In this document: positions 1,340 to 53,352 of the stretch, piece after piece
Position numbering within the stretch: the first letter of the stretch is position 1
Layout of the letters: each line of letters opens with the position of its first letter
Origin: an uncultured bacterium
GTDB lineage: Bacteria > Bacteroidota > Bacteroidia > Bacteroidales > Bacteroidaceae
Length of the DNA: 64,000 nucleotides
Reading direction: 5' to 3'
Assembly: GCA_905214625.1 (NCBI GenBank)
Contig: CAJMMQ010000001.1
Span: 158,178 to 222,177, forward strand
Translations under genes and position numbers: made by a program
The notes under the pieces: model-generated
Database searches by the model: none
Told to the model about the DNA's origin: nothing
The model's input: only the letters and a program-made list of their open reading frames with translations

Positions 1340-1471
1340 AAAAGACTGTATCTTGTGTTGTGTAAAGAAATTTGTTGAGTTGCGAAATGCCACATATTGC
1401 ATTGTAAAAAGCCGTATATTACACCACAAAAGCATACCTTTTGCATTGTGAAAGGTATGCTTTTGTAGTGC
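1340..1471. repeat. 22-bp dyad repeat array E (6 units)
   Basis: Six consecutive 22-bp units begin at 1340, 1362, 1384, 1406, 1428 and 1450 with no gaps. Units 3-6 fit the shared pattern best: purine-AAA, a short GC-rich centre, a T-run, then a 7-base linker such as GCATTGT. The array lies between the convergent MFS and PepSY genes. The period is not a multiple of three, so the array is not coding. Confidence 0.8.
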
Positions 1472-1535
1472 AATGTTATTTTGCCGGTGTTTTATCGTGT
1501 GTTTTGCCGTTGTTTATTTTTGTTTTTTAGGTTTA

Positions 1536-1982
1536 TCATTCAATGTCAATAACCTGGAATTTCTTGTTAAAAGTAATTTCTATCCGGTTAGACAAGTCCA
1601 CCTCATATTCGTCATCGTCTTTTTCAATTTTTATAATTATACATTCCGGATAATTCTTTTTTACGTATGAGCTTATCTGTGGCGGAACGATGCTTGCCGG
1701 CACGGCAGAGCGCTTACAGCTTATTTCTGTCCAGTTGCCATGTTTGTCAAATTCTATTTTTTCGCCGTTGGTAAATATTACGGTATATTCTTTTGTAAAG
1801 AAGCCCGATTCAACTTTTGCCATGGCTACTTTTTTGTTGGCGAAGTGCCTGCTTAGCAGCTGGTGTGCCTTGGCCGGAAGCTGACTTACGCTTATGGGCT
1901 TTTCGTCGCCTGCCGCGGCGTTTATGGCTACAGCAGAAAACAAGAATACAGCCATGATGGCTTTTTTGATAAATTCTTTCAT
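1536..1982 (-). CDS. PepSY-like secreted protein, paralogue 1
   Basis: A 148-residue protein with a Sec signal peptide (about residues 1-24, ending NAAAG) and two PepSY-like half-repeats. Each half has a strand rich in lysine and acid residues, then a short turn (FTNGEKIEFDKHGNW near 70-84; KIEKDDDEYEVDLSN near 118-132). It matches the PepSY_like family (PF11396) common in the Bacteroidetes periplasm. It has the same length and plan as the next gene, so the two probably arose by duplication. An AAAAGAAG ribosome site precedes the ATG at 1982. The neighbouring two-component system suggests a role in sensing or adapting to envelope stress, but that is inference; no biochemical role is established. 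Confidence 0.85.
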   Translation of the reverse strand: MKEFIKKAIMAVFLFSAVAINAAAGDEKPISVSQLPAKAHQLLSRHFANKKVAMAKVESGFFTKEYTVIFTNGEKIEFDKHGNWTEISCKRSAVPASIVPPQISSYVKKNYPECIIIKIEKDDDEYEVDLSNRIEITFNKKFQVIDIE

Positions 1983-2013
1983 TAGACTTCTTTTGTTTTT
2001 AATGTTATATGGT

Positions 2014-2065
2014 TAAAAAGAGATGTGCCCAAAAATAAATCTGATTATTTGTTTCGGCACACTCT
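2014..2065 (-). terminator. Rho-independent terminator after PepSY paralogue 2
   Basis: Read on the minus strand, AGAGTGTGCC pairs with GGCACATCTCT (one bulge), an inner AAATAA/TTATTT pair extends the stem, and TTTTTAACC follows. It separates the two PepSY genes into different transcripts. Confidence 0.65.
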
Positions 2066-2092
2066 TTCTTTTGTCTGTTGTCAGTATTGCCG

Positions 2093-2539
2093 TCAGTCGA
2101 TGTCTATTACGACAAAGTTTTTGTTGAATTTAATCTCTATGCCGTTGGCAAGGTCTACTTCATACTCTTTTTCGTCTTTTTCTATTTTCAGCACTTTTAC
2201 TCCCGGATAGTTTGTTTTCAGATAGCTTGCTATTTTTGCGGGGATTAGTCTTGCCGGTACGGCAGATAGCTTGCAGTCTATCTCTTTCCATGCTCCTCTT
2301 TTGTCGAACTCAATCTTCTCTCCGGTTGTGAACACCACTTCATAATCTTTATCAATAAGTCCGGTTTCCTGTTTAGCCATTGCTACCTTCTTTCCGGCAA
2401 AATACTTTTTAATGATTTGCTGTGATACTGTAGGAAGCTGATTTACAGTAATTGGTCTGTCGTTGTCGGCAAGGGCTTTAACCTGGAACGCTAATATGCA
2501 GATTACTGCTACTACACATGTCTGGATAATTCTTTTCAT
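2093..2539 (-). CDS. PepSY-like secreted protein, paralogue 2
   Basis: A 148-residue paralogue of the upstream protein: signal peptide (MKRIIQTCVVAVICILAF...), then two PepSY-like halves with the same turns (FTTGEKIEFDKRGAW, KIEKDEKEYEVDLAN). The frame extends upstream to 2593, but the Met at 2539 starts a normal signal peptide, follows an AAAAGAAGAT ribosome site and matches the length of paralogue 1, so it is chosen. The promoter region next to it carries an 11-bp-spaced direct repeat typical of OmpR-family binding, and the adjacent histidine kinase and response regulator are the obvious candidates to control it. Likely periplasmic; function unknown. Confidence 0.85.
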   Translation of the reverse strand: MKRIIQTCVVAVICILAFQVKALADNDRPITVNQLPTVSQQIIKKYFAGKKVAMAKQETGLIDKDYEVVFTTGEKIEFDKRGAWKEIDCKLSAVPARLIPAKIASYLKTNYPGVKVLKIEKDEKEYEVDLANGIEIKFNKNFVVIDID

Positions 2540-2590
2540 AATCTTCTTTTTTTTAGGGTTTGTAATCATTTTTTGTTCTTTTGTTTGATG

Positions 2591-2640
2591 CAAAGATGCA
2601 AGGGGTTTCTGAAAAGAATCTGAAAAAACGGTTCAGAAAA
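2591..2640 (-). promoter_or_regulatory. Candidate promoter with OmpR-type direct-repeat operator
   Basis: CAAAGATG at 2591-2598 reads CATCTTTG on the minus strand, one mismatch from the Bacteroidetes -7 box. Just upstream, TCTGAAAA occurs at 2608 and again at 2619 (11-bp spacing), with a related TCAGAAAA at 2633. Direct repeats at one helical turn are typical of winged-helix OmpR-family regulators. No clear -33 TTTG is present, which fits an activator-dependent promoter. Binding by the adjacent regulator is inference. Confidence 0.5.
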
Positions 2641-2650
2641 GTGCTTTTAA

Positions 2651-3931
2651 CTAATTTTTGCTTTTGCTTATTTCAAACGCATGTTTTCCGTTGCTGTAGC
2701 TGTAGGTTATTTCCATGCCGTATTGTGCGCAGATAGCTTTCACTATGGCAAGGCCGAGTCCGGTTGACGATTTCTTGCCGGGTGAGTGATAGAAGCGTTC
2801 AAATATCTTGTCGCTGTCGAGCCTGTCGGGCTGTCCAGTGTTTTCTATTTTTATATGTCTGCTGTCCGACGTTATGTTTATCTCGCCTCCTTCTATGTTA
2901 TGCACAAAGGCGTTCTTTATAAGGTTTGTCATCAGTATGTTTGACAGCTGTCCGTCCATGTCTATCACCGGCGCCTCTTCGCACATGTTGTTTACGGTTA
3001 TCTTCATGCGCGAATAAACCGGTTTAAGGTTGTTGACAGTCTGTGAAGTAACATCCTTCAGGCTTACCTGCTTATGCTCAGCAAACTGTCCGTTGTCAAT
3101 CTTGCACAACAGCAGCAGCGAGCGGTTTGTCTCGGTAAGCTCCTTCAGCGTGTGAAGTGTCTTAATTATCTCGGCCATCTGGTTTTCCGACAGCCCTTCT
3201 TCGTCGAGCAGCATCTCGAGTCTGTTGCGGCAAATGGCCAGCGGTGTCTGCATCTCGTGCGACGCATTTGCAATGAAGAGCTTTTGCTGCTCATATTGTT
3301 TCTCGTTGCGCTCGATACTCCTCATCACCGTTTCGTTGAGTTTCTTGAATTCGGCTATTTTCGTATTGTTTTTCAGTGGTTTGATGTTTTTTCCGAGTTT
3401 ATACGAGTCGAGCCAGTTGAACAGTCTTTTCAGCGGTTTCATGCTGTGGCTTACCGTCCACAGGTTAACTGTTATCATGCCTATGAGCAGACCGAAATAC
3501 AGTACGACAAGCCAGATGAAGATAGAGTTTTTAAGGTTTTGTTTGTCTATTGTGGGCGTGAATACCGTTAGTTCATGATATTTGTCGTCGTTCGACTTGA
3601 ATATATATGTAACGGCTCTTGTCTGTTCAAACTCGTTGTTCTCAACAACATAAGTGTCCATGTCGCGGTATCTTATGTGCGAGTGACTCTCGGCATATTC
3701 GTCAGATACCGTGTGTATATAGTAGTTGTTGCCGGCACCATTGTGGGTGTCGGGCAGTGGTACGCCGGCCAGATAGTCGGTAATGAGAGTTTCGGCATAA
3801 TTTGTCAGGCTGTCGTCGGTCTTGTTGTTGATTTCTTTTATGATTGCAAAATAGAAGCACACGGCCCACAGGGCTATGCCTATGGCCTTTAGTACGGACA
3901 GACGGAAAGTAAGAACATTTTGCAGTTTCAT
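2651..3931 (-). CDS. Membrane sensor histidine kinase
   Basis: A 426-residue sensor kinase. One helix near residues 12-32, a periplasmic segment of about 105 residues, and a second helix near 136-158 precede the cytoplasmic kinase. The H-box is SHEMQTPLA, with His225 as phosphoacceptor. The N-box (TNLIKNAFVHN), the F-box region (IFERFYHSPG) and the G2 motif (STGLGLAIVKA) are intact. It resembles the Bacteroidales RprX type, but the periplasmic domain is short. It overlaps the response regulator by 4 bp (ATGA) and is co-transcribed with it. The ligand is unknown; PepSY-like proteins next door may be targets or modulators. Confidence 0.92.
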   Translation of the reverse strand: MKLQNVLTFRLSVLKAIGIALWAVCFYFAIIKEINNKTDDSLTNYAETLITDYLAGVPLPDTHNGAGNNYYIHTVSDEYAESHSHIRYRDMDTYVVENNEFEQTRAVTYIFKSNDDKYHELTVFTPTIDKQNLKNSIFIWLVVLYFGLLIGMITVNLWTVSHSMKPLKRLFNWLDSYKLGKNIKPLKNNTKIAEFKKLNETVMRSIERNEKQYEQQKLFIANASHEMQTPLAICRNRLEMLLDEEGLSENQMAEIIKTLHTLKELTETNRSLLLLCKIDNGQFAEHKQVSLKDVTSQTVNNLKPVYSRMKITVNNMCEEAPVIDMDGQLSNILMTNLIKNAFVHNIEGGEINITSDSRHIKIENTGQPDRLDSDKIFERFYHSPGKKSSTGLGLAIVKAICAQYGMEITYSYSNGKHAFEISKSKN

Positions 3932-4605
3932 ACTTTTACGAGCTTATATCCAAAACCGTATATTGTTTTTATCTCTATGTCGGCACCTGCCGCCTTAAGC
4001 TTTTTGCGCAGGTTTTTAATCTGGGCGTATATGAAGTCGAAGTTGTCGGCCTGGTCGATGTCGTCGCCCCAGACGCCTTCGGCCAGTGTCTGTTTCTCTA
4101 TAAGGCGGTTTGCCCGGTTTACAAGATAGTGAAGAATCTCATACTCTTTGCGTCCAAGGTCAATGTCCTGTCCGTTCACCTCCACCTTAAATGTGTCTGG
4201 ATGAATGGTTACGTTGCCGAACTTTATGTTGTTCTCGCCGTTCTGCGTGTGGCGTCTCATTACGCTCCTTATGCGCGCGTGCAGCTCGGCCAGGTGGAAA
4301 GGCTTTGCCAGATAGTCGTCGGCGCCCAGCTCAAGTCCGGCCACCTTGTCGTCGATAGAATCCTTTGCCGATATTATTATCACGTTTTTGCGCTTGCCGC
4401 GTTCGGCCAGTTCCCTCATAAGGTTAAGTCCGTTGCCGTCGGGCAGCATGATATCCAGCAGAATGCAGTCGTATTCATAAATAAACAGCTTGGTGTGCGC
4501 CGTTGCATAGTCGGGCGCTGTTTCCACAACGTAGCGCTCTTTTTCGAGCGAGCGCACAATTATGTCTCTCAGGTCGGCATTGTCTTCTATTACGAGTATC
4601 TTCAT
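3928..4605 (-). CDS. OmpR-family response regulator
   Basis: A 225-residue two-domain regulator. The receiver domain (1-120) has the acidic pair at EDN (residues 7-8), phosphoacceptor Asp51 in LLDIMLPDG, and the conserved Lys in AKPF. The C-terminal winged helix (about 130-223) includes the usual end TIYGFGYKLV. It resembles the RprY group. It is the first gene of the two-component operon, with the kinase following by a 4-bp overlap. It probably controls the PepSY-like gene downstream, whose promoter carries an 11-bp direct repeat. Confidence 0.93.
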   Translation of the reverse strand: MKILVIEDNADLRDIIVRSLEKERYVVETAPDYATAHTKLFIYEYDCILLDIMLPDGNGLNLMRELAERGKRKNVIIISAKDSIDDKVAGLELGADDYLAKPFHLAELHARIRSVMRRHTQNGENNIKFGNVTIHPDTFKVEVNGQDIDLGRKEYEILHYLVNRANRLIEKQTLAEGVWGDDIDQADNFDFIYAQIKNLRKKLKAAGADIEIKTIYGFGYKLVKV

Positions 4606-4648
4606 TTCTTTTAATTATAAGTTTTATGCCCGGGGCATTTAATGAATG

Positions 4649-4676
4649 TCGGGCGGCATCTGCCGACGCCGCCCGA
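4649..4676 (-). terminator. GC-rich hairpin between acyl-CoA synthetase and response regulator genes
   Basis: TCGGGCGGC (4649-4657) pairs with GCCGCCCGA (4668-4676), 9 bp with a 10-base loop. No T-run follows on the minus strand, so termination or processing is possible but not certain. Confidence 0.5.
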
Positions 4677-4686
4677 TTGATTTTAT

Positions 4687-6750
4687 TTAGTTCTTTTCAA
4701 TAAGTATTCTTGCGTCTACAGCCGTAACGCTGTCCTCGTCGGCCAGCAGCGGGTTGATGTCGAGTTCTTTTATTTCGGTGGCGAATCTCAGCAGGGTAGA
4801 GAGCCGCACGATAATCTCGGCATACTTCTGCTCGTTGAGTCCCTTCTGTCCGCGCGTTCCCTTGATAATCTTGTAGGCGCGCAGAGAGCGAATCATAGAG
4901 TAGGCTTCGTCGTATGACAGAGGCGCAAGTCCGCTCGAAACGTCTTTCAGCACTTCAACGAATATACCGCCGAGTCCGCACAGCACGATGTGGCCGAAGC
5001 GCTGCTCATATTTTGCTCCGATAAACAGCTCCTTGCCTTTAAGCATCTTTTGCACCATAACGGCCTTGGCGTCTTTAATCTTCATCATGCGGTCGAACTC
5101 CATTTCAAGGTGTTCCGCGCTTCTTACGTTGAGCGCAACGCCGCCCACGTCGCTCTTGTGTACAGGACCAACCACCTTGGCCACTACCGGATAGCCAACC
5201 TTGTCGGCAAATGCTTTAAGGTCGCTCTTAGAGTCGCTAACCATCTCGGGCACCATAGGTATGCCGGCACATTCAAATATCTGATGCACAAGTTCGGGCG
5301 CTATATATCCGTTCTCCTTTATTCCTGCGATAATCTCTCTTATGCGCGGAACGTCAACGCCGAACAGCTCAATCTCAGGCGATGCCGGCTTTGGTGTCTT
5401 CATAATCTGCGTGAGAGCCGTGGCGAGCGTTACCTCGTCGCTGAAGTTTACGTGCCCCTTCTTCAGGAATTCAGCCACTTCGGGTCCTGCCGTGTGCAGA
5501 CATGGCAGTATGGGGAATATAGGTTTCTTGCACTCGAGAATCTTCTTGTGCAGCACGTCGTATGCCTCATAGAGCTGAACAAGGCCCGGTGTGCCGAAGA
5601 TTACGAATATGGCGTCGATGTCCTTGAACTTGTTTTCGCAGTAGTCTATGGCTATGCCCAGATGTTCGGGCGTTCCGGTTGCAAGGATGTCAATAGGGTT
5701 AGCCACTGACGCTCCGGGAAATAGCAGGCTCTTCAGCTCGTCGGCGTCGGGACCTTCAATCTTCGGAACGTTGAGCCCGCCCTTAGACAGCGCGTCGGTG
5801 AGCATTACTCCGGGACCTCCGGCATGGGTCACGATGGCGAAGTTGCGGCCCGTGAGTGGCGGAAGCGTGAATATGCAGCCAACGGTTGTGAGTTCCTCTC
5901 TTGAGAAACAGCGCACTATGCCCGCCTTGCGGAACAGGGCCTCTACGGCAGAGTCGCTGCTGGCAATGGCTCCTGTGTGCGACGATGCGGCACGGCTTCC
6001 GCTCTCGCTGCTGCCGGCCTTGATTGCCGCTATGCGGCAGCCTTTGCGTATAAGCGACGAAGCGTGGAAGAGCAGCTTGTCGGGGTTGCCCACGTTTTCG
6101 ATGTATAGCAGTTTTACGTGCGAGTCTTTCTCAGGGTCGAAGTTCTCGTCCATATATTGCAGCACGTCCTCAATGCCAATCTGCTTGCCGTTGCCTATGC
6201 TCCATACAGAGTTGAACGGCAGACCCTTTGTTACTGCCGACTCGAGGATAAACACTGCCGTTGCGCCTGAACCGCTGATAAAGTCGACGCCTTTTTCGTG
6301 CAGTGTAGGTATAGGTTTGGTGAATACGCTGTGATGCCATGAGTTGAGCAGGCCGATACAGTTAGGCCCAATAAGCGCTGCTCCGTGGCGTTCGCAGGTG
6401 TCGAGTATGTGTTGTTCGAGCTTGGCTCCCTCCTTTGTCTCCTCTCCGAAGCCTGCCGATATTATTATGAAGGCTTTTACTCCTTTGTCTTCAGCCAGGC
6501 GGTCAACCGTTTCGGGGCACATGTGCGAGGGTATTACGAGTATTGCCAGGTCGGTAGGCGGCAGCTCGCTTATGTCGTGGAACGCCTTTACGCCTTGTAC
6601 CTCGTCTTCTTTCGGATTTACAATGCGCAGAACGCCCTTGTAGCCTCCGTTGATGATGTTGCGCACGATGGCGCCGCCGGGTTTGTGAACGTTGTTTGAG
6701 CCGCCGATTACGACGATGCTCTCCGGGTGAAGAAGTTGTCGGTTAATCAT
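4687..6750 (-). CDS. ADP-forming acetyl/acyl-CoA synthetase, fused alpha-beta
   Basis: A 687-residue fused enzyme that interconverts acyl-CoA plus ADP and phosphate with free acid, CoA and ATP. Order of parts: a CoA-binding Rossmann domain (about 8-130, SIVVIGGSN), succinyl-CoA-ligase-like flavodoxin folds (150-450) with the phosphorylated His258 in SHTG, and an ATP-grasp domain (about 470-687) including GPVHKSDVGGVAL. Length is typical of bacterial fused alpha-beta forms. It gives ATP from acetyl-CoA or another acyl-CoA in anaerobes and bypasses phosphate acetyltransferase/acetate kinase. Single gene, separated by hairpins from neighbours. Exact acyl preference cannot be read from sequence. 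Confidence 0.9.
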   Translation of the reverse strand: MINRQLLHPESIVVIGGSNNVHKPGGAIVRNIINGGYKGVLRIVNPKEDEVQGVKAFHDISELPPTDLAILVIPSHMCPETVDRLAEDKGVKAFIIISAGFGEETKEGAKLEQHILDTCERHGAALIGPNCIGLLNSWHHSVFTKPIPTLHEKGVDFISGSGATAVFILESAVTKGLPFNSVWSIGNGKQIGIEDVLQYMDENFDPEKDSHVKLLYIENVGNPDKLLFHASSLIRKGCRIAAIKAGSSESGSRAASSHTGAIASSDSAVEALFRKAGIVRCFSREELTTVGCIFTLPPLTGRNFAIVTHAGGPGVMLTDALSKGGLNVPKIEGPDADELKSLLFPGASVANPIDILATGTPEHLGIAIDYCENKFKDIDAIFVIFGTPGLVQLYEAYDVLHKKILECKKPIFPILPCLHTAGPEVAEFLKKGHVNFSDEVTLATALTQIMKTPKPASPEIELFGVDVPRIREIIAGIKENGYIAPELVHQIFECAGIPMVPEMVSDSKSDLKAFADKVGYPVVAKVVGPVHKSDVGGVALNVRSAEHLEMEFDRMMKIKDAKAVMVQKMLKGKELFIGAKYEQRFGHIVLCGLGGIFVEVLKDVSSGLAPLSYDEAYSMIRSLRAYKIIKGTRGQKGLNEQKYAEIIVRLSTLLRFATEIKELDINPLLADEDSVTAVDARILIEKN

Positions 6751-6836
6751 GTGTTTTTTGTTTAGGGTTAATAGGTTTTGGCCGCTTGCGTCCTTTTATA
6801 GGCATAAGGATGCGCAGGCGGCAGTTGTATGATATG

Positions 6837-7295: not shown

Positions 7296-7547
7296 GTTGT
7301 TATGTTTTATTGTTTCACAATGTTCATGGCATGGCACAACCAGGCGCTGCCTTATTAGTGTGGCATGTTGCTGATTGGAAATTTTGCATGCAACCACACT
7401 GCAAATATACAATAAGAAAATGAGAAAGTTGTTCAAAAACAAGGATAATATTTCTTAATAAGGTGATAGTCAGTGGCGTATTCATGTAGTTGCGTAACTT
7501 TCTGATTAACATTGTATGGTTTGTTTTATCTTATTTATCGCGTTAAC

Positions 7548-8709: not shown

Positions 8710-8820
8710 TAAATCACTGCTTTTTGCACGCAAAACAGTTGTTTTTTGTTTTGTAAAATGCCGTGTTTTGCGCTTCAATATGCCTCATTTTGCATGCTGA
8801 AAGCATAGCTTTTGCATTAT
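8710..8820. repeat. 22-bp dyad repeat array F (5 units, one of 23 bp)
   Basis: Units start at 8710, 8732, 8755, 8777 and 8799. Four are 22 bp; the second has one extra T. Units 3-5 are the clearest, with linkers GCGCTTC, GCATGCT and GCATTAT. The array is in the 730-bp gap between the SGNH hydrolase and alpha-2-macroglobulin genes, both on the plus strand. No gene is supported in this gap (8454-9186); apart from the terminator, this array and the promoter, nothing else is seen. Confidence 0.75.
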
Positions 8821-9042
8821 ATTTAAGTACTTTTTGCCTTTTAAACGCATTTGTCGCAGGTCATGACGGTGTATTTCGTGCATTATAATTTCTATAATAC
8901 CTGTTTCTGACGTGTTAAAATTATGTACTTAAAATACACAGTATTGGTAAATAAAGTTAATTTGTTCGCCTCTTGTGCGTAATCCTCGGCAATAATCATG
9001 TTTTAGTTTTTGAAAGTTAAACGGCAAAAAACATTAAATCGT

Positions 9043-18208: not shown

Positions 18209-18296
18209 GAAAGGTGTCATTTTAGGTTGTAAAAGACCACATATTGCAGTGTAAAAGACAGCCTTTTGCAGTGCAATATGCGGCATATTAGAAAAG
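18209..18296. repeat. 22-bp dyad repeat array D (4 units)
   Basis: Units at 18209, 18231, 18253 and 18275, exactly 22 bp apart. The fourth unit has the perfect dyad AATATGC-G-GCATATT, while the third is AAAAG...CTTTT, so arm sequence changes but pairing is kept. A degenerate partial unit may follow to about 18340. It lies between convergent ispH and the WG-repeat gene. A motif rich in ATTCGGGTT at 18150-18168 resembles part of the second dispersed family. Confidence 0.8.
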
Positions 18297-31920: not shown

Positions 31921-31930
31921 GATATGTCAG

Positions 31931-32100
31931 TAGTTAAAGTAGTTATAGTAGTTAAAGTAGTTAAAGCCATTACCTTTATTGCTGCATTCTGCTGTTGTTA
32001 TTGTCAATATTTTTGTTGTCGGACGTTTTTCCGGTAAGACTAATGACTTTAACTACTTAGCGAACAACGTGAGCGGTAACTTCTTTAACTACTTTAACTA
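31931..32100 (-). repeat. Inverted blocks of 9-bp tandem repeats between thyA and folA
   Basis: Four tandem copies of TAGTTAAAG (one varied to TAGTTATAG) at 31931-31966, and the reverse complement CTTTAACTA twice in tandem at 32083-32100, plus a single copy at 32047-32055. The outer blocks can pair over about 18 bp. One block is next to the thyA stop, the other 10 bp from the folA start. Confidence 0.75.
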
Positions 32101-32107
32101 CTGAATT

Positions 32108-34394: not shown

Positions 34395-34556
34395 TAAAAA
34401 GGTGTCTTGATTTTCATACATCCTTTCTTATATGTATGCCATTGCATGGATGCACCGTTCTGAAATGCCTTGGCGTGCCCTGACGTGCTCCTGCTGCGGC
34501 GCGTTGAAAAATAAGTTTTAAGTGCTGTGTAACATGCTGACTGTCAGTAGGTTTGC

Positions 34557-34666
34557 AAAAGGCCTCCTTTTACATTCCAAAAGGTGGCTTTTTAGCGTGC
34601 GATTTGTGGCCTTTTGCATCCCGAAAGGTGGCCTTTTACAAAACGCTTTGTGGCGTGCCGTCTTTC
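34557..34666. repeat. 22-bp dyad repeat array A (4 clear units, 1 decayed)
   Basis: Units at 34557, 34579, 34601, 34623 and (decayed) 34645, strictly 22 bp. Unit 4 holds a core close to AAAGG-TGG-CCTTT. Units 2-4 are nearly identical to units 2-4 of array B at 53287-53352, 18.7 kb away. Located between divergent genes. Nothing else is recognised in the 469-bp gap 34337-34805 apart from the methyltransferase promoter. Confidence 0.85.
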
Positions 34667-36540: not shown

Positions 36541-38613
36541 TTACATCTCTATCACGAAACTGTCGTCTTCAGAGCCTCCGGCTTCCAGTTCCTTTGACTT
36601 TGGCGGATTCTTCAGATTGCCGTTTTCGTCAAACATTCCGTATGTAATCCTAAGAACGATGAACTCTGTACGTCGGTTCAGCTGGTTGCATATCTCCTGT
36701 TTTTCCTCGTCGAGTTTCTTTATGAACTCTTCTGTCAGCACGTCGCCCTCCTTCAGCCACGGATATTTCTCGGTCAGCTTCTTGCGTATTGTCTTCGGTT
36801 TTTCCTTGCCGTAGCCTACCGGCGACAAGCGGTCTTTAGCTATGCCGTGCTCTATCAGATAGTTTACCACGGCCTCGGCTCTCTTCTGCGACAGGGTCTT
36901 GTTATATTCCGCGCTGCCCTTATAGTCGCAGTGTGCGCTCAGTTCGATGGTCACGTTGGGGTTTTCGTTCAGCAACTTGATAAGCTCGTCGAGCGCCTTG
37001 GTCGACTCCTGGCGCAGCGAATACTTGTCAAAGTCGTAGAATATGTTGTCTATCAGCACCGGTACACGTATCGAGGCGAGCGGAAACTGCAGCACATATT
37101 CTTCTGATTCTGTCACCGGCTTCACCCTCAGTTCTTCCTTGTGGTTGAGGAAACCCTTGCATGTTGCAAGCATCATGTAGTCTACATTCGGGTTTATAAC
37201 CTGCGTAAAAGAGCCGTCGCCCTTAACGTTCAGCTTTAGGTTGGTACCGTCGCTGCCTATCATATACACCAGTGCGTCGGGCAGTTCGTAGCCGTCCATC
37301 TCGTAAACCCAGCCCTTCACGGTCTGTATTATCTCCGGTTTTTCAAAGCTGTATATGTGGTCCCATCCTCTGCCGTCGCCTCTGTTCGATGAGAAGAAGC
37401 CGCGGTTGTGGGGCCCTTCAAAAGTCATTCCGAAGTCGTCTCCATAAGAGTTGAGCGGATAACCAGGGTGTTCGAGCACAAATTTCTTTGTCTTCTTGTC
37501 CACCTTAGCTATGTATATGTCGAGTCCGCCGAGGCCTTTGTGTCCGTCAGACGAGAAATAAAGGTCGCCGTTCGGCCTGAAAGTGGGGAACATCTCGTTG
37601 CCCGGCGTGTTGACGGGTTCGCCAAGATTCTCCACGCCTCCAAGTCCGTTACTTGTAAGTCTTACTCTCCATATGTCGTATCCGCCCTTTCCTCCCGGCA
37701 TGTCAGACGTGAAATAAAGCCATTGTCCGTCGGGCGATACGGCCGGATGGGCATAGCTCGACAGCGTGTCGCGTGTTATTTCGAGAGCTGAAGCCTTACT
37801 CCATGCGGCATCGGCGCGGTTAGATGTCACTATGGTTGCGTACCTCGGATAGTTCGGGTCGGTGGTGCATTGGGTAAGATACATCTGACTTTGGTCTGGC
37901 GTAAAGCAGCATGCGCCCTCGTCAAACTCAGTGTTGAGGCCCGAAACAATGGCCTCCGGTTTGCCCCATTTGCCCTTGTCGTCCTTCTGCGACACAAATA
38001 TGTCGCCAGCTTTGGTGCCCGTTATGCCGCTCAGTTCGTCGCCTTCGGCCTCGTTTCTCGTAGAAGTGAAGTACAGTTGGTCGTATTCGTCACCGAAGAG
38101 CATGGGCGAATAGTCGGCCCGGCGCGAGTTGAACACGTCCATCTTCTTTACGATATATCTCGAGCCGGCTTCCTTTTCGGCCTGTGCTGTCTGTGCCGAC
38201 AGCAGTCCGGTCTTGGCGAGTTCGTTGTCGGGAAGTGAGTCGAGCACGAGCTGAAACTCCTTTGCAGCCTCCTTATAGCTGCCGTTTTTCATCAGCACAC
38301 GTGCAAAGGAAAGGTGCGTGTCGATGTCGGCCTTGTTGTATCTTATCGTGTTCCGGTATGCCGCAATGGCTTTTTGTGTTGAGTTTATGCGGTCGTAGCA
38401 TCCGGCAAGTTTCTTTGCCCGTTCGCCTCTTTTGTCCTTGTCTTTGGGTGAGGTCTTGTTATACGCGGTCTTAAATTCGGCCGCAGCGTCATAATATTCG
38501 CCTAAGGCGAGATATTTCTCACCTTTTTTCATGTAATGGTCGGCGCCGCACGACGCTGTAAGCAGCATCGTAAAGCATATTATTATGAGTGTGTAAAGCT
38601 TTTCTTTCATCAC
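36541..38613 (-). CDS. PorE-like OmpA-domain lipoprotein of type IX secretion
   Basis: A 690-residue lipoprotein. Signal peptide with lipobox LTASC (Cys22), tetratricopeptide helices (about 25-160), a WD40/PD40-like beta-propeller (about 175-440, with repeated DGQWLYFTSD- and NGDLYFSSDG-type blades), a carboxypeptidase-regulatory-like domain (about 445-520) and a C-terminal OmpA-type peptidoglycan-binding domain (about 530-660; ELSAHCDYKGSAEYN, LSQKRAEAVVNYLIEHGI and SPVGYGKEKP). This four-part order matches PorE of Porphyromonas gingivalis, which links the T9SS to peptidoglycan. Homologues of the same architecture outside T9SS exist, so PorE itself is likely but not certain. Confidence 0.85.
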   Translation of the reverse strand: MMKEKLYTLIIICFTMLLTASCGADHYMKKGEKYLALGEYYDAAAEFKTAYNKTSPKDKDKRGERAKKLAGCYDRINSTQKAIAAYRNTIRYNKADIDTHLSFARVLMKNGSYKEAAKEFQLVLDSLPDNELAKTGLLSAQTAQAEKEAGSRYIVKKMDVFNSRRADYSPMLFGDEYDQLYFTSTRNEAEGDELSGITGTKAGDIFVSQKDDKGKWGKPEAIVSGLNTEFDEGACCFTPDQSQMYLTQCTTDPNYPRYATIVTSNRADAAWSKASALEITRDTLSSYAHPAVSPDGQWLYFTSDMPGGKGGYDIWRVRLTSNGLGGVENLGEPVNTPGNEMFPTFRPNGDLYFSSDGHKGLGGLDIYIAKVDKKTKKFVLEHPGYPLNSYGDDFGMTFEGPHNRGFFSSNRGDGRGWDHIYSFEKPEIIQTVKGWVYEMDGYELPDALVYMIGSDGTNLKLNVKGDGSFTQVINPNVDYMMLATCKGFLNHKEELRVKPVTESEEYVLQFPLASIRVPVLIDNIFYDFDKYSLRQESTKALDELIKLLNENPNVTIELSAHCDYKGSAEYNKTLSQKRAEAVVNYLIEHGIAKDRLSPVGYGKEKPKTIRKKLTEKYPWLKEGDVLTEEFIKKLDEEKQEICNQLNRRTEFIVLRITYGMFDENGNLKNPPKSKELEAGGSEDDSFVIEM

Positions 38614-41522: not shown

Positions 41523-41768
41523 AATGTCTCTGTAATTATATGTTTGGTGTGAAACAGGTTTGCAAAATTAATAAAATTGCTTCATACATCGTTTACTTTT
41601 AAGCATTGTTTATAAAAAAACTTTCCACCTATTATATATATGGCAGCCGTAGATATTACCTGTTGGCAAGAAATAGCCTCCTTTTGAGTGTGTTTTTCAG
41701 ACGGCTTGCCACCCCTTCCGCCAGATGAATATATGTGTCTGTAAGTGACTGATAATCAATGTATTTCT

Positions 41769-41856
41769 GAAAGGTGGCCTTTTGGCTTGTAAAAGACGGT
41801 CTTTTAGCCTGCAAAAGACGGCATTTTGGACGGTGAAAGGTGTCCTTTTGCAAATC
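41769..41856. repeat. 22-bp dyad repeat array C (4 units)
   Basis: Units at 41769, 41791, 41813 and 41835, exactly 22 bp. Unit 2 has the perfect dyad AAAAGAC-G-GTCTTTT; units 1 and 4 have AAAGG...CCTTT, so arms covary. It lies between divergent LUD and lutA genes, well away from both starts. Confidence 0.85.
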
Positions 41857-47486: not shown

Positions 47487-47522
47487 ATTAATTATTTTAA
47501 GGTTTTAGGCTTATATGGCGGT

Positions 47523-47556
47523 ACGACGGAGCGTAGACATGCTCTTGCTCCGTCGT
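47523..47556. terminator. Hairpin between purT and the FdtA/QdtA gene
   Basis: ACGACGGAGC (47523-47532) pairs with GCTCCGTCGT (47547-47556), 10 bp. On the minus strand no T-run follows; on the plus strand ATCTTTTTT lies 10 bases later. Possible partial stop between purT and the sugar genes. Confidence 0.45.
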
Positions 47557-47573
47557 TGCTTATGGCATCTTTT

Positions 47574-48734: not shown

Positions 48735-48737
48735 TGT

Positions 48738-49037
48738 TTATTCTTTGATTAATTGTTTTACCATCTGCCATTCTGGGGATACGGCCATTCTCCTTACATT
48801 CGCCTCTATGATTTTTCTCATTGTTTCGGGGCTTACGTTGTGTTCCTTTGCAATGTCTTCAAGCGGTTTGACATCGTTGCCGAACAGTCCGTAATACTGT
48901 TGAAGCACGGCTTCGTCGTCAGCGTAGATAAGGTGCATTATGTGCTTTATGTAATGTTCAATCTTTTCGCTTACGCAATGCGGTTCTTTGCCGAGTCTTA
49001 TCAGAAAATCCTGAAGCTCTTGTGAGAGTGCGTCCAT
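48738..49037 (-). CDS. Small sigma-region-4-like protein of unknown function
   Basis: A 99-residue cytoplasmic protein. The second half, YYGLFGNDVKPLEDIAKEHN and VSPETMRKIIEANVRRMA, looks like region 4 of sigma-70: a helix-turn-helix with LEDIAKEHNVSPETMRKI in the place of LEEIGKEFNVTRERIRQI. No regions 1-3 are present, so it is not a sigma factor itself; it may bind -35-like DNA or RNA polymerase. It is 3 bp upstream of purT and probably co-transcribed. This homology is by eye and should be taken as tentative. Confidence 0.65.
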   Translation of the reverse strand: MDALSQELQDFLIRLGKEPHCVSEKIEHYIKHIMHLIYADDEAVLQQYYGLFGNDVKPLEDIAKEHNVSPETMRKIIEANVRRMAVSPEWQMVKQLIKE

Positions 49038-49087
49038 CTTGATAAAAGAATGTTATGAAAAGTTGTTATTATTATATATGTTTGACA

Positions 49088-49128
49088 AATGTCAGAAAAT
49101 GGAGTGTGATACATCATTTCCTGACATT
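49088..49128 (-). terminator. Hairpin after rfbB
   Basis: AATGTCAGAAAATG (49088-49101) pairs with CATTTCCTGACATT (49115-49128) with one mismatch. On the minus strand it lies just after the rfbB stop and before the small sigma-4-like gene; the following T content is modest. Confidence 0.5.
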
Positions 49129-49139
49129 ATCTTTTGTGG

Positions 49140-50288
49140 TTATCTGTTTGAATACATCTGCTCGTAATACTTCTGATAATCGCCGCTTGTAACCTCTTTC
49201 ACCCAGTCTTGGTTTTCGAGATTCCATTTAATCGTCTTAACAATGCCGTCGGCAAACTTTGTCTCAGGATACCATCCTAGCTCATTCTTGATTTTTGTCG
49301 GGTCGATGGCATAGCGCTGGTCGTGGCCCAGGCGGTCTTTAACGAACGTGATAAGGCTGTCGTTAATCCAGTCGATGGCTATCTCGCCGTCAGTGTCTTT
49401 CACCTGTTTCTTCAGTATCTTGCGCAGCTCTTTGTTTTCGGCCATCATGTCGTGAATGGTCTTTATCGTCAGTTTTACGATGTCGATGTTAGTCATTTCG
49501 TTGTGGCCTCCGACGTTATACACTTCTCCTTCCTTGCCTTCGCGCACCACAAGGTCTATGGCCTTGCAGTGGTCTTCTACATAAAGCCAGTCTCTCACGT
49601 TGTCTCCCTTGCCGTAAACCGGGAGCTGTTTGCCTTCAAGAATATTGTTTATTATCAGCGGAATAAGCTTTTCGGGGAAGTGGTAAGGACCGTAGTTGTT
49701 AGAGCATCTTGTTATTGTTACAGGCATGTGGTAAGTGTCGTGGTATGCCATGACAATCATGTCGGCACTTGTCTTTGAAGCACTGTAAGGACTGTGGGGG
49801 CAGAGCGGTGTCTTTTCTGTAAAGTAGCCTTCCTTGCCCAGTGAACCGTACACTTCGTCGGTGCTGACCTGATGGAAGCGTTTGCCTGCTTTCCATACGG
49901 GGTATCCCGTTTCATCTTTTCCTGTAACCCATGCTTTTCTTGCAGCGTCGAGCAGGTTTTGCGTACCGAGAATGTTTGTTTCGAGAAACAGTTGGGGATT
50001 CTCTATGCTGCGGTCAACATGACTTTCGGCGGCAAAGTTTACAACATAGTCAATATCGTTTTCTGAAAATATCTTGTCGGCCAGTTTGCTGTCGCGTATG
50101 TCTCCGTGTACAAACACGCATCTCCTGCCGTCAATATCGTCTTTTATTGTACCATAATTACCTGCGTATGTAAGCAAGTCGAGCACAATTATCTTGATGT
50201 CGTCTTCCTTATATTTTTTATAGAGAAGATATTTAATAAAATTTGAGCCGATAAATCCGGCAGCTCCGGTAACAAGATAAGTTTTCAT
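49140..50288 (-). CDS. rfbB: dTDP-glucose 4,6-dehydratase
   Basis: A 382-residue NAD-dependent short-chain dehydrogenase-type enzyme converting dTDP-glucose to dTDP-4-keto-6-deoxyglucose. GAAGFIGSNFIKYL binds NAD; FAAESHVDRSIENP, STDEVYGSLG and the YSASK catalytic Tyr-Lys are present, with CSNNYGPYHFPEKLIP for the sugar. It supplies the substrate of the FdtA/QdtA isomerase located 1.7 kb downstream. The RmlA thymidylyltransferase is not in the window, so dTDP-glucose must come from elsewhere. Confidence 0.95.
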   Translation of the reverse strand: MKTYLVTGAAGFIGSNFIKYLLYKKYKEDDIKIIVLDLLTYAGNYGTIKDDIDGRRCVFVHGDIRDSKLADKIFSENDIDYVVNFAAESHVDRSIENPQLFLETNILGTQNLLDAARKAWVTGKDETGYPVWKAGKRFHQVSTDEVYGSLGKEGYFTEKTPLCPHSPYSASKTSADMIVMAYHDTYHMPVTITRCSNNYGPYHFPEKLIPLIINNILEGKQLPVYGKGDNVRDWLYVEDHCKAIDLVVREGKEGEVYNVGGHNEMTNIDIVKLTIKTIHDMMAENKELRKILKKQVKDTDGEIAIDWINDSLITFVKDRLGHDQRYAIDPTKIKNELGWYPETKFADGIVKTIKWNLENQDWVKEVTSGDYQKYYEQMYSNR

Positions 50289-50339
50289 ATTATTGATTTT
50301 TATTGTTAGTATTCTTATTTAAGATAACTCGTTTTTTGC

Positions 50340-50858
50340 CTAAAAATTGTGTCCGTCAGCTTTTCTTGGGTCTGATAATGTAACAACCTCAAGGTCTTTA
50401 AAGGTATTTCCGTCTATCGTGAGCCTTATCAGAGTGCGGTCTTTATGCCATCCTTGCAGTCCGGCAGCCCCGGGGTTTATGTGCAGCAGGTTTAGCGTTT
50501 TGTCGAATTTAACTTTAAGGATGTGCGAGTGTCCGCTTATGAAAAGCTGTGGCGGCATGGCGTATATCGAGCCTCTGATGCTTGCGTCGTAGTTGCCCGG
50601 ATAGCCTCCGATATGCTTCATCAGCACCTCGGTGTCCTCACATTTCCAGCGTAAAGTCTCTCTGAACATACGCCTGAGGTCGCCTCCGTCGCAGTTGCCG
50701 TAGACGGCTCTAAGCGTGCGGTATTCTGCCAGCTTTTGTGCCACCTCGAGCGAACCAATGTCTCCTGCATGCCATATTTCATCGCATGGCTCAAAATATT
50801 TCAGGTATTTCTCGTCCCAATAGGCGTGTGTGTCGCTTATTATCCCTATGCGTTTCAT
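50340..50858 (-). CDS. YfcE/MJ0936-type metallophosphoesterase
   Basis: A 172-residue calcineurin-like phosphoesterase. Metal ligands: ISDTHAYWDE (Asp, His), WHAGDIGS (Asp), YGNCDGG (Asn), and SGHSHI (His-X-His) with GAAG nearby. Short form of the YfcE family with broad phosphodiesterase activity; the natural substrate is unknown. Cytoplasmic. It lies between rfbB and a cytidylate-kinase-like gene on the same strand, with gaps of 51 and 83 bp. Confidence 0.9.
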   Translation of the reverse strand: MKRIGIISDTHAYWDEKYLKYFEPCDEIWHAGDIGSLEVAQKLAEYRTLRAVYGNCDGGDLRRMFRETLRWKCEDTEVLMKHIGGYPGNYDASIRGSIYAMPPQLFISGHSHILKVKFDKTLNLLHINPGAAGLQGWHKDRTLIRLTIDGNTFKDLEVVTLSDPRKADGHNF

Positions 50859-50941
50859 AATTCATTAACGGCTTTTTGTTATGCGATAATGCTGCTGGCA
50901 GCCGGCGCTGGACAATAATGCCAGGCCGTGCTGCATCGGTA

Positions 50942-51571
50942 TTATTTTAAGTTCAGGCTCTTTATGACAAACTCTTTCAGAAAGTCGGCAGTGCCTTCAA
51001 TTCCAAGCAGACTTGAGTTTACGCACAGGTCGTATGACGTGCTGTGTCCCCATTTCTTGCCCGTATAATAGTTATAGTATGAGGAGCGGCTGTCTTCCTT
51101 GTTTTCGATAATCTTTTTTGCCTCCTCCTTGCTGCAGTTGTGTCTCTTGCATACACGTTCTATGCGTTCGTCCATGTTTGCGGTTATGAAGACGCTTACC
51201 ATGTCGTTAAAGTCGCGGAGCACGTAGTCGGCACATCTGCCTACAAAGACACACGAGTGGGCTTCTGCCGCCTTGCGTATGGCATCGCTCTGAAACTGGA
51301 ACAGGCTTTCCTGCGACAGCTTGTTGTTGTAAAAGCAGTTGTCTGATATATAAGGCACATGCATGTGGAACAACGACTTGAAAAATCCTTTTTTCTCATC
51401 GTTCTGCTCAAAAAATTTTTCACTGAATCCGCTTTCTTTCGCTGCGAGGTTCAGCAGCTCGCGGTCGTAAAACTTACATCCAAATTCGTTTGCAAGCATC
51501 TTTGCTATAATAAGTCCGCCGCTTCCGAGTTGTCTTCCTACGTTAATTATTATTTTCTTCTTGGTTTCCAT
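50942..51571 (-). CDS. Cytidylate kinase-like family protein
   Basis: A 209-residue P-loop nucleotide kinase-like protein (PF13189 type). NVGRQLGSGGLIIAKMLA is an altered P-loop near the start (GRxxGSGG instead of GxxGxGKST), then YDRELLNLAAKESGF and the CVFVGRCADYVL and KRHNCSKEEAKKII segments. Distinct from the classical Cmk at 21.1 kb. Substrate not established. Its first 29 bp overlap the end of the MATE pump gene in another frame, so the two are translationally linked. Confidence 0.85.
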   Translation of the reverse strand: METKKKIIINVGRQLGSGGLIIAKMLANEFGCKFYDRELLNLAAKESGFSEKFFEQNDEKKGFFKSLFHMHVPYISDNCFYNNKLSQESLFQFQSDAIRKAAEAHSCVFVGRCADYVLRDFNDMVSVFITANMDERIERVCKRHNCSKEEAKKIIENKEDSRSSYYNYYTGKKWGHSTSYDLCVNSSLLGIEGTADFLKEFVIKSLNLK

Positions 51572-52931
51572 AAGGCACGGCTTTATTTTGTTTTTTGAAT
51601 TTTCTCATATATTTTGTCATCATTACTGCGGCTATTATTGAGGCAATGGTGTCTGCTGTTGGCAGAGATATCCACACACCGTCGAGTTTAAAGAAGTGTG
51701 GGAGGATAATCAGCAGCGGCAGAAGGAACAGCATCTGTCGTGACAGCGACAGGAATATGCTTATCTTTGCCTTGCCGATGCTTTGGAAAAAGTTTGTGAT
51801 AACCATCTGGTATCCTACAAACGGGAAGGCTGCCATGTTTATTTTTATTGCCCGCATGGCTTTGTCTATTAGTTCGGCATCTGTCGTAAACAGTCGTGCG
51901 CACTGATAAGGAAAGATGTGTACAATCAGAAATCCTGTTGTGGTTATAGCTGTTCCTGCTATTATTGCGCATTTCAGCACTTTCATCAGGCGGTCGAAGC
52001 GCTGTGCGCCATAGTTATATCCTGCAATAGGAAGCATGCCCTGGTTTAATCCCATTGTTACCATTATAAATACAAATGCCACCTTATTGGCTATTCCGTA
52101 TGCACCAACGGCCATGTCGCCTCCATATTTATATAAACTGGTGTTGATGAATATAACCACAATACACGCACAAACGTTCATTGCAAACGGCGACATACCG
52201 ATGCCGATGATATTTTTCAGGATGTTGCTTCTCAGCTTGTATATGCCTTTTTTAAAGTGCACTATCTCCTTTGGCTTGGTGAACAGCCATAACTGCCATG
52301 CAAGCGATGCGATTTGTGATATTACCGTGGCCAGGGCCGCTCCCTGTATTCCCATTTTCATCGGCCAGATAAATATCGGTGCCAAAATGGTGTTGAGAAC
52401 CACAGACGACATCGTGGCAAACATGGCGTGGCGCGGCTTTCCCACGGCGCGCAGTATGGCATTCATGCCGAAGAATGTTTGCGAGAACACGTTGCCGGCT
52501 AAAACCACGAGCATGTATTCGCGCGCATAAGGAATAGTGTTTTCGCTCGCACCGAAAAAGTAGAGTATCGGGTCGAGAAAAAGCAGTGATATAACTCCGA
52601 AGGCTACTCCCACAATGATGTTCAGTACAATGCTGTTTCCGAATATCAGCTCAGCTTTTCGATAGTCTTTTTGTCCAAGCTTTACCGATATACATGTAGA
52701 TGAACCGATGCCGACTGCGGCTCCGAATGCAGCCGAGAGGTTCATCAGGGGGAACGTTATCGCCAGTCCTGATATTGCCAGTGGACCTACGCCTTGACCT
52801 ATAAAAATACTGTCAATCATGTTGTACAGCGAGGCCGCCGTCATCGCTATGATGGCGGGCAGGGCATATTGCATAAGCAGTTTGCCCACCGGTTTTGTTC
52901 CCAGTTCAAGTGTTGCTTGTTTATTATCCAT
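51543..52931 (-). CDS. MATE family efflux transporter
   Basis: A 462-residue inner-membrane protein with about 12 helices in two halves, and the N-terminal TKPVGKLLMQYALPAIIAMTAASLYNMIDSIFIGQGVG typical of the DinF/NorM-like MATE group. It exports drugs or metabolites with sodium or proton. Length typical. Its 3' end overlaps the cytidylate-kinase-like gene by 29 bp. Promoter seen about 25 bp upstream of the start. Confidence 0.92.
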   Translation of the reverse strand: MDNKQATLELGTKPVGKLLMQYALPAIIAMTAASLYNMIDSIFIGQGVGPLAISGLAITFPLMNLSAAFGAAVGIGSSTCISVKLGQKDYRKAELIFGNSIVLNIIVGVAFGVISLLFLDPILYFFGASENTIPYAREYMLVVLAGNVFSQTFFGMNAILRAVGKPRHAMFATMSSVVLNTILAPIFIWPMKMGIQGAALATVISQIASLAWQLWLFTKPKEIVHFKKGIYKLRSNILKNIIGIGMSPFAMNVCACIVVIFINTSLYKYGGDMAVGAYGIANKVAFVFIMVTMGLNQGMLPIAGYNYGAQRFDRLMKVLKCAIIAGTAITTTGFLIVHIFPYQCARLFTTDAELIDKAMRAIKINMAAFPFVGYQMVITNFFQSIGKAKISIFLSLSRQMLFLLPLLIILPHFFKLDGVWISLPTADTIASIIAAVMMTKYMRKFKKQNKAVPYGNQEENNN

Positions 52932-52956
52932 AATGCTATACCAATCTTAATCTGTG

Positions 52957-52987
52957 CAAAGTTACTGTATGTTGGTCTAATTGCAAA
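52957..52987 (-). promoter_or_regulatory. Promoter of the MATE gene
   Basis: On the minus strand TTTG (52987-52984), 19 bases, TAACTTTG (52964-52957): perfect Bacteroidetes consensus. The leader is about 20 bases, so the transcript start is close to the ATG at 52931. Confidence 0.8.
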
Positions 52988-53264
52988 GTAAATTGTTGTA
53001 AAAAACTGTTTTTGTTTGTTTTCATGCCAATGTTTTTGTTTTGTTTGCCGGCTGTTGGTACTTGTGTTGTCTGTATTGCCCGCTGTCTGTAAGGCATAAA
53101 ATTCTCTGTGTGCGAAAAGCTGATAGCCGTTTCATACTAAGCTGTCTGACGTGTTGTTTCAATCACAAAAAGCGTATATTCAAAGGGCTTTTGACATCAT
53201 GTCTGAACAGGGGCTTGTCAGGCTGTATTTGGGTTTAAAAATGCCCGTCAATGTTTGATTTTAC

Positions 53265-53352
53265 AAAACACGGCAAATCGCATTCCAAAAGGTGCCCTTT
53301 TAGCGTGCGATTTGTGGCCTTTTACAGCGTGAAAGGCCACCTTTTGCAAAAG
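53265..53352. repeat. 22-bp dyad repeat array B (4 units)
   Basis: Units at 53265, 53287, 53309 and 53331, strictly 22 bp. Units 2-4 are nearly the same as those of array A (34579-34644), sharing the tract TTTTAGCGTGCGATTTGTGG. The last unit has AAAGG-CCA-CCTTT. Between divergent genes, about 250 bp from each promoter. Confidence 0.85.

Follow-up and report, generated by a model that had tools for sequence, protein, structure and literature searches.

A family of tandem arrays with a pitch of 22 bp, or two helical turns, keeps its geometry across Prevotellaceae while the preferred word of the units changes between lineages. Six of these arrays lie in the window (the whole 64,000-nt stretch of DNA analyzed here), whose source species is a close relative of Xylanibacter rarus. 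Word-based searches miss the family because its spacing is conserved and its sequence is not: a model built on the arrays of a single lineage gave no array in 40 other genomes of the bacterial family, whereas a pitch scan that used no word found arrays in 39 of 80 Prevotellaceae loci. The arrays look like undescribed docking sites for DNA-organizing proteins, and literature searches returned no description of such arrays. To our knowledge, little is known about chromosome folding and segregation in Bacteroidota, and elements this abundant and regular in common gut and oral bacteria offer a bait for the protein and a map of its expected sites.

Six arrays in the window

An earlier note on this DNA had placed arrays of a 22-bp unit at six positions, and all six were present in a sequence check of the window. 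They are listed below with a separate flanking dyad, termed M0.

1340..1471, + strand: array 1, six 22-bp units in a convergent intergenic region (profile and gene calls)
8710..8842, + strand: array 2, with six units of which the last is weak and a 23-bp step at the start, in a tandem intergenic region flanked by genes for a GDSL lipase and an alpha-2-macroglobulin
18209..18296, + strand: array 3, four units in a convergent intergenic region downstream of ispH
34529..34555, + strand: M0 dyad at array 4, GTAAC-N4-TGACTGTCA-N4-GTTTG, centre 22 bp before the first unit centre
34557..34644, + strand: array 4, four units in a divergent intergenic region
34645-34666: decayed fifth unit of array 4
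41741..41767, + strand: M0 dyad at array 5, GTAAG-N4-TGATAATCA-N4-ATTTC, centre 22 bp before the first unit centre
41769..41856, + strand: array 5, four units in a divergent intergenic region, with a minus-strand LUD-domain gene as left neighbor
53265..53352, + strand: array 6, four units in a divergent intergenic region, unit order similar to that of array 4
53403..53429, + strand: degenerate M0-like stretch, 78 bp past the last unit centre of array 6, recognized by eye and falling below the motif used in the M0 count

Two extents in the earlier note were revised, since array 2 runs on to 8842 with its weak sixth unit and array 4 consists of four units and a decayed fifth. The exact pitch with one 23-bp unit proved right, the start of array 2 being the sole 23-bp step, and a codon-usage gene caller confirmed that all six arrays are intergenic, in two convergent, one tandem and three divergent settings. 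Each array was recovered by a profile built from the other five, with 43.9 to 64.1 bits over three units against a top score of 13.9 bits in 20 shuffled windows per array. Among distances of 15 to 60 bp between strong unit matches in the window, 22 bp occurred 19 times, 44 bp 15 times and any other value at most once. Tandem Repeats Finder at score 30 reported parts of three of the six arrays.

All six arrays persist at syntenic sites in X. rarus, a second species. In four orthologous arrays the arms are 100% identical, a figure inflated by the arrays having been found through their arms, and identities are 61 to 78% in the centres, 46 to 75% in the linkers and 20 to 64% in the flanks; this ungapped comparison covers four of the six pairs, as those at 1340 and 53265 do not align ungapped.

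A constant pitch with changing words

Applied to the intergenic DNA of the 80 Prevotellaceae loci, the word-independent scan yielded 66 arrays with a pitch of 22, whereas every other pitch in the range 16 to 32 yielded 0 to 11, and shuffles gave none at pitch 22. The words of these 66 arrays differ from genome to genome. Clear dyads were present in 48, and the remaining 18, with a dyad z of 2 or less, count against dimer sites, as the 41 loci without an array count against an architectural role. One alternative word, GTGCA-N7-TGCAC arms at 22-bp pitch, had 87 and 15 matches in two genomes and none in the reversed control. Small samples of other Bacteroidota, drawn from the order and the phylum, contained no pitch-22 array.

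Model-based scans gave the same geometry. X. rarus contains at least 75 arrays, which are sparse in parts of its genome, a point against an architectural reading. In a pool of 133 arrays, 112 consist of exactly four units, and 399 of 400 steps measure 22 bp, the remaining one being 21. A five-unit version occurs in two other genomes (G057 and G093), where 41 of 47 arrays have five units and all 181 steps are 22 bp, and its copy number is at least 150 in a genome with two chromosomes. The profiles were retrained on the genomes that they then scanned, and shuffles gave 0 in both the pooled-array and the five-unit scans. Model-based counts are lower bounds; because only 22 to 150 candidates were scored per genome, the figure of at least 12 in 201 family genomes with model matches is an undercount. 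In one model scan, 15 of 40 genomes had no match. Gene calls based on ORF length put 48 arrays inside ORFs, mostly spurious, and the codon-usage caller was used instead. By this caller 128 of the 133 arrays are intergenic, with every gene setting included and divergent regions not avoided (36 of 128 arrays versus 100 of 515 regions).

The earlier note had reckoned with units confined to this DNA, without a preferred pitch, or amounting to chance or low-complexity sequence. The arrays instead occur in X. rarus and other Prevotellaceae genomes, prefer 22 bp in the genome scans and are distinct from shuffled-DNA noise. Tandem units and, in this clade, AT-richness are what chance, slippage or low-complexity sequence would produce, but the probability of such an origin is negligible given one sharp pitch across words, shuffles that give nothing, conserved arms, and identical direct neighbor units that are rarer than expected (1 versus about 11).

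Dyad symmetry and possible roles of the arrays

The consensus unit is a dyad, and the individual units quoted in the earlier note are indeed palindromic. At scale, the proposed dyad core did not hold up as a paired structure: in 104 four-unit elements, to which the covariation tests were confined, the two arms of a unit match each other no better than do arms exchanged between arrays by permutation (z of -2.9 to +1.0), and the arm-covariation test proposed earlier thus failed within units. The dyad claimed for the linker is present but only loose. Covariation is found between units, within the pairs 1:2 and 3:4, with an inverted-repeat excess of z 6.6 and 5.8 in one genome (G209) and 1.8 and 2.0 in X. 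rarus and the window. Simple dimer sites do not need this covariation, which counts against that reading. In the five-unit version (40 of 47 arrays used), the 1:2 and 3:4 pairing is absent. Units 4 and 5 of this version are not palindromes, which weakens a pure dimer-site reading for it.

The mutual inversion of units 1:2 and 3:4 is what transcribed hairpins, terminators or mRNA stabilizers would call for. We consider such a role very improbable, however, since pairing is missing from the five-unit version, arrays are frequent in divergent regions, and the transcribed strand shows no G-U excess (183 G-U versus 211 A-C, p 0.17). When elements were oriented by linker 2, which was possible for 64 of the 104, wobble pairs showed no clear asymmetry. 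Against Rfam, no curated covariance model reached its gathering score on any array; one chance-level match (24.5 bits versus a gathering score of 60) lies across the end of array 2. Tiny RNA hairpins in a string, as envisaged in the earlier note, are unsupported, given no covariation inside units, no G-U excess and non-palindromic units 4 and 5 in the five-unit version, and hairpins or terminators were rejected as the main role on the covariation and the wobble type on the transcribed strand.

The array and M0 together form an 11-bp lattice. Of 62 near occurrences of M0, 45 are at a distance of 22 or 33 bp from the array. Only 55 of 206 arrays have an M0 within 80 bp, which counts against the phased assembly site proposed below. 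M0 resembles two overlapping half-sites of the IHF type.

The balance of evidence tips slightly toward the arrays being dispersed intergenic nucleoprotein-assembly sites, in which helically phased dimer sites would nucleate a nucleoprotein complex extending over the chromosome and would have an architectural rather than a gene-specific role. Each dimer of a DNA-binding protein would recognize two short half-sites in inverted orientation, which in this clade are AAA and TTT at a distance of 10 bp. With four such pairs repeating every 22 bp, the dimers would line up along the same helical face, with M0 as a second dyad 22 or 33 bp further out in part of the arrays. Once bound, the dimers may wrap or bridge about 100 bp of DNA into one complex, and numerous copies set apart from each other could serve as architectural anchors for the chromosome instead of gene-specific switches. 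The preferred word shifts between lineages with the geometry kept, and arrays persist at their sites, where they would be partly overwritten by copies from other sites. Such a phased array fits because the lattice includes M0, the arms are conserved while the centres drift, and the pitch is kept despite word change. The earlier suggestion of a phased array for a dimeric chromosome protein is thus supported in part, by lattice, arms, pitch and copy spacing, and is weakened in the five-unit version by the non-palindromic units 4 and 5. No obvious cognate regulator was found beside arrays of five or more units, and no reader emerged among the candidate proteins examined, which counts against a binding array.

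A broader proposal, which we hold tentatively and lean against, is that in Prevotellaceae a rapidly diverging protein dimer co-evolves with the half-site word that it reads and that a family-wide fixed array geometry organizes the chromosomes. Half-sites would be alternately about 10 and 12 bp apart, giving 22 bp per dimer, usually with four or five dimers and with copies kept apart. If this is true, the arrays represent a new class of architectural element of bacterial chromosomes, conserved in geometry instead of sequence.

Copying, spacing and comparison with known systems

Part of the family was probably copied between sites. Near-identical copies (at least 85%) account for 22 of the 66 arrays in G209, for 7 of the 44 in X. 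rarus, for 2 of the 28 in G208 and for none of the 14 in G206. In some pairs identity ends close to the array, and a 72-bp stretch of window array 6 is 83% identical to the X. rarus array that corresponds to array 4. The five-unit element, about 245 bp long, has similar sequence at both ends. These observations would suit a selfish or neutral dispersed repeat (MITE- or BIME-like) of about 95 to 245 bp that is spread by a transposase or by copying, with the dyads as the enzyme's sites and no gain for the host. Such a repeat is rather unlikely, given that arrays with conserved arms are kept at all six syntenic sites in two species and that one pitch with unrelated words would require many independent elements of the same geometry. 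PF01797 (RAYT, Y1 transposase) is present in 15 of 40 genomes overall and absent from 9 of 15 array-rich genomes, which leaves mobilization by RAYT unsupported. A strict three-unit pattern had no match in viral contigs, and a viral origin was set aside.

Array spacing is even in five of eight stretches tested and not in three; the stretches were partly picked for looking dense, and two lie within a third. The best 150 copies of one genome include no gap below 2.5 kb, where about 17 were expected under uniform placement on the chromosomes, with the limit chosen after a glance at the copy list. Outside that list, one G057 pair is 0.4 kb apart, its second member having three units, and the overall spacing CV in G057 is not low, which counts against even spacing. 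A minimum spacing could also reflect target immunity of a mobile repeat.

BrickBuilt elements of Porphyromonas gingivalis, a member of the same bacterial order, are likewise intergenic tandem arrays of imperfect repeats of similar unit length (23-nt units, 1 to 22.8 repeats, 19 copies), with a leader and tail bearing IS5-like inverted ends and BLAST matches only in Porphyromonas, according to PMC4596501, which also mentions earlier reports of 22-, 23- and 41-nt tandem repeats in strain W83. Unlike the 23-nt unit, the array steps are 22 bp apart from the single 21-bp and 23-bp exceptions. The IS5-like end motif, with up to two mismatches, matched the window 9 times versus 17 expected by chance, one match (18259) falling inside array 3. 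Membership in BrickBuilt was therefore rejected on unit length and end motifs.

The BIME/REP elements of enterobacteria are palindromes scattered in many copies through extragenic DNA, where they form ordered groups and are bound by gyrase and other proteins, and some (BIME-1/RIB) carry an IHF-bound sequence between REPs (PMC2817692); a GTAG or CGTC tag at the palindrome end is also described (PMC3733652). The present arrays are also multi-copy, extragenic and composed of palindromes in ordered groups. They differ in their fixed lattice of 22-bp steps, with four or five units in most arrays and M0 at 22 or 33 bp, in words that change between lineages and in having no link to a RAYT transposase.

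Lrp/AsnC proteins bind degenerate, imperfect inverted repeats of 13 to 17 bp set two or three helical turns apart, and their octamers wrap DNA (PMC2995911). The arrays are similar in inverted-repeat size and spacing, and a protein of this family might be the reader, with four dimers (an octamer) on four units and the DNA wrapped. We regard this as quite improbable. Proteins of this family occur in all of 30 genomes, some with and some without matches to model R1, so that their presence does not discriminate, and the five units in G057 and G093 do not fit four dimers. In one paralogue the segment SRAAIHQRVQ, presumably its recognition helix, is identical in 18 of 18 recovered proteins despite differing array words, which leaves this paralogue unsupported as the word reader (30 loci sampled: 18 usable, 7 with another paralogue, 2 with the wrong ORF and 3 with none). 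Unlike the Lrp/AsnC cases in the parts of PMC2995911 used here, which concern gene-specific control regions, the arrays number up to hundreds per genome and occupy all gene settings.

Extent and form of the array family

The six arrays of 22-bp units that the earlier note had placed in the window at 1340, 8710, 18209, 34557, 41769 and 53265 (arrays 1 to 6) were all recovered there, each in intergenic DNA. When held out, each array scored 43.9 to 64.1 bits with a profile built on the other five, compared with a top score of 13.9 bits in shuffled controls (20 windows per array, leave-one-out profile). The pitch, or unit-to-unit step, is exactly 22 bp with one 23-bp exception, as had been claimed, and this lone step lies in the array at 8710. 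A codon-usage gene caller placed 2 arrays in convergent, 1 in tandem and 3 in divergent settings, the three kinds noted earlier. Two other sorts of short repeat were seen in the window, each within a single intergenic region:
31929-31966 and 32077-32102: two facing 9-bp tandem arrays, unit AGTAGTTAA and its reverse complement
57892-57962 and 58000-58033: AT-rich 7-bp repeats of the ATAATTC and AATTATG types

A genome scan with a unit profile, proposed in the earlier note, revealed that arrays occur well beyond the window. With the unchanged window profile, 17 of 80 Prevotellaceae topB loci hold three-unit arrays, and shuffled loci (one shuffle per locus) gave no hits of ≥12 bits. The closely related Xylanibacter rarus (strain 109 TopB 96% identical to that of the window; syntenic region 86.8% identical, length weighted over all listed BLAST pieces, including a few paralogous ones) contains 79 forward matches to a strict two-unit pattern, with 0 for the reversed control, and at least 150 covariance-model matches counted over two strands, which correspond to at least 75 arrays. 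In the metagenome-assembled genome G209, stretches of 294 kb and 100 kb contain 55 and 21 arrays. Among the 133 arrays above 45 bits from X. rarus, the window and G209, 112 consist of four units exactly, and the step is 22 bp in 399 of 400 cases; 732 kb of shuffled DNA yielded no array above 45 bits. Matches were present in 25 of the 40 genomes searched, 15 of which had at least 76, and a strict three-unit pattern found none in viral contigs. The family is real, abundant and lineage-wide.

A five-unit version was found in two two-chromosome genomes, G057 and G093, where 20 regions selected around model hits contained 47 arrays, 41 with exactly five units, and all 181 steps were 22 bp. Each unit position has a separate word (unit sequence), and units 4 and 5 are nonpalindromic (1.4 and 1.8 of 7 arm pairs). 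The conserved element spans ~245 bp, and each of its ends carries a TGTAA-nn-ATTTTTCA-like sequence. G057 holds at least 150 copies; of the matches listed, 73 and 77 fall on the two strands. At an E value of 1e-6, the five-unit model gave no match in another 40 genomes of the family. The third linker has two forms, GAGGTCT and AAGACCC, which resemble mutual inversions, possibly a mark left by template switching. In another genome, G208, three neighboring long arrays of 7, 8 and 10 units (GAAAGGCCGTGAATC-GCACACC; contig C1, 90776-91720) stand upstream of a TonB-receptor-like gene, SusC type by its look.

Pitch, word and unit anatomy

The conserved trait is the pitch, not the word. A word-independent scan for self-similarity of four units at a set pitch in the intergenic DNA of all 80 topB loci found 66 arrays in 39 loci at pitch 22 and none in a shuffled copy; pitch 24 gave 4, and pitches other than 16, 21, 22 and 24 gave 0 to 2. 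Minor peaks were seen at 21 (11 arrays in 8 loci) and 16 (8 arrays in 7 loci). The dyad z score at pitch 22 had a median of 3.28 and exceeded 2 in 48 of the 66 arrays, versus 4 of 30 at all remaining pitches pooled. Some of the 66 arrays share the window's word, and others carry different ones.

Words of individual topB loci, read by eye
L029: TTGCACnnnGTGCAA
L052: TTATCnCCATGGnGATAA
L057: CTACATG-CATGTAG
L065: AGTAACC-GGTTACT
L069: TCTAGA-TCTAGA

Three pitch-22 arrays each were found in 200 kb of P. communis (dyad z 2.2, 4.5 and 0.8) and 100 kb of S. buccae (4.5, 6.0 and 1.5). The doubled pattern [GTGCA-N7-TGCAC-N5] occurs 87 times in the genome of L029 and 15 times in S. buccae, with none in six further genomes or in the reversed control. 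No pitch-22 array was detected in 25 order-level (26 kb intergenic) and 26 phylum-level (24 kb) loci of other Bacteroidota, small samples for which the topB-loci rate predicts ~9 arrays per 26 kb, or in six 20-kb stretches (16 kb intergenic).

The unit of the X. rarus clade consists of a 15-bp core, RAAAGG-NNN-CCTTTY, and a 7-bp linker, so arranged that half-sites alternate at ~10 and ~12 bp; the GTGCA word shows this alternation too (12/10). A separate flanking dyad, M0 (GTAAC-N4-TGAYNRTCA-N4-GTTAC), was counted 77 times over 1.79 Mb, versus 11 in one shuffled copy, and precedes window arrays 4 and 5. Sixty-two occurrences are no farther than 300 bp from an array, and in 45 of these the distance to the last unit center is exactly 22 or 33 bp; such distances, being multiples of 11 bp, suggest a single face of the DNA double helix. 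M0 is not obligatory, since only 55 of 206 arrays have it within 80 bp.

Symmetry, constraint and copying

The earlier note had held that pairing is kept within units and that the arrays could be strings of RNA hairpins. Within units, however, arm pairing is no better than after permutation of the arms (z of -2.9 to +1.0). RNA stems would require more G-U than A-C on the transcribed strand, and 85 tandem-context elements have 183 and 211, respectively (p 0.17), which does not fit the hairpin idea. The symmetry lies between units: 1:2 and 3:4 are mutual inverted repeats above expectation, with z of 6.6 and 5.8 in G209 and 1.8 and 2.0 in X. rarus plus the window. Of 164 elements, 45 and 52 match at 13 to 15 of 15 positions for these two pairs, where the null predicts 19.5 and 28; for pair 2:3 the number is 9, below the null of 22.6. 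Such pairing is absent from the five-unit version. We infer that it reflects site orientation or a trace of inverted-repeat correction via template switching; a DNA cruciform is a possible alternative.

Each of the six window arrays is matched by one at the corresponding place in the syntenic X. rarus region, and a seventh X. rarus array (383485) had no counterpart detected in the window. In four ungapped pairs, the A and T arms agree at all 96 positions (100%), a value inflated because the arrays were located through their arms, with centers at 61 to 78%, linkers at 46 to 75% and ungapped flanks at 20 to 64%. Elements are copied as well: 22 of 66 G209 elements have another at ≥85% identity, with identity ending near the array in some pairs and continuing past it in others, and window array 6 resembles, at 83% over 72 bp, the X. 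rarus array that corresponds to array 4.

Genomic placement, candidate reader and known relatives

Of the 133 arrays, 128 are intergenic (70 tandem, 36 divergent and 22 convergent; background regions of ≥110 bp, 324, 100 and 91). Between tandem genes, an array typically stands 85 bp (median) after the upstream stop and 197 bp (median) before the downstream start. One strong four-unit array (X. rarus contig C4, 105209) is within a predicted 3-kb gene. The 23 arrays of this contig are evenly spaced (coefficient of variation [CV], 0.40 versus 0.78 for random eligible regions; none of 2,000 draws that low), as are those at 53-107 kb of contig C2 (0.21 versus 0.60). Even spacing was significant at 0.02 in 5 of 8 stretches, some picked for their dense appearance, and not in the other 3. 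G057 has no gap below 2.5 kb among its best 150 copies (~17 expected under uniform placement), with one closer pair outside that list and an overall CV that is not low; in G209, arrays 1.2 kb apart occur. Array density correlates positively with G+C across 39 X. rarus windows (rho 0.59) and shows no significant rise with it in G209.

The arrays would be nucleoprotein-assembly sites used across the whole chromosome. Several features taken together fit this reading: half-sites are conserved and their centers freer, four or five sites are phased exactly with the helix, and some arrays have a companion dyad in phase with them; copies are numerous, their spacing is partly controlled, and they occur whatever the orientation of the neighboring genes. 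The known geometry that matches best is that of the Lrp/AsnC family, for which the available text of PMC2995911 describes imperfect inverted repeats of 13 to 17 bp, two or three turns apart, and DNA-wrapping octamers. By analogy, the arrays may work like an Lrp array, with an Lrp/AsnC protein as a candidate reader. However, members are present in 30 of 30 genomes, and the segment SRAAIHQRVQ of one paralogue is unchanged in all of the proteins recovered (18 of 18) even though the words differ. On X. rarus contig C6, an array (37357-37444) adjoins an AsnC/Lrp-family match (37576-37752).

No published description of such Prevotella repeats, palindromes or nucleoid sites was found in a search of mostly nonsubscription literature, and the family appears to be undescribed so far. 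Should a co-evolving reader exist, the family would merit a separate class. By kind, the arrays are bacterial interspersed palindromic elements. Judging from the portions available of the sources (PMC12306157 and PMC5771137 also serving as background), BIMEs/REPs are the closest known kind (PMC2817692), and the nearest by lineage is BrickBuilt (PMC4596501), whose paper notes that tandem repeats of 22 nt had earlier been reported in P. gingivalis W83.
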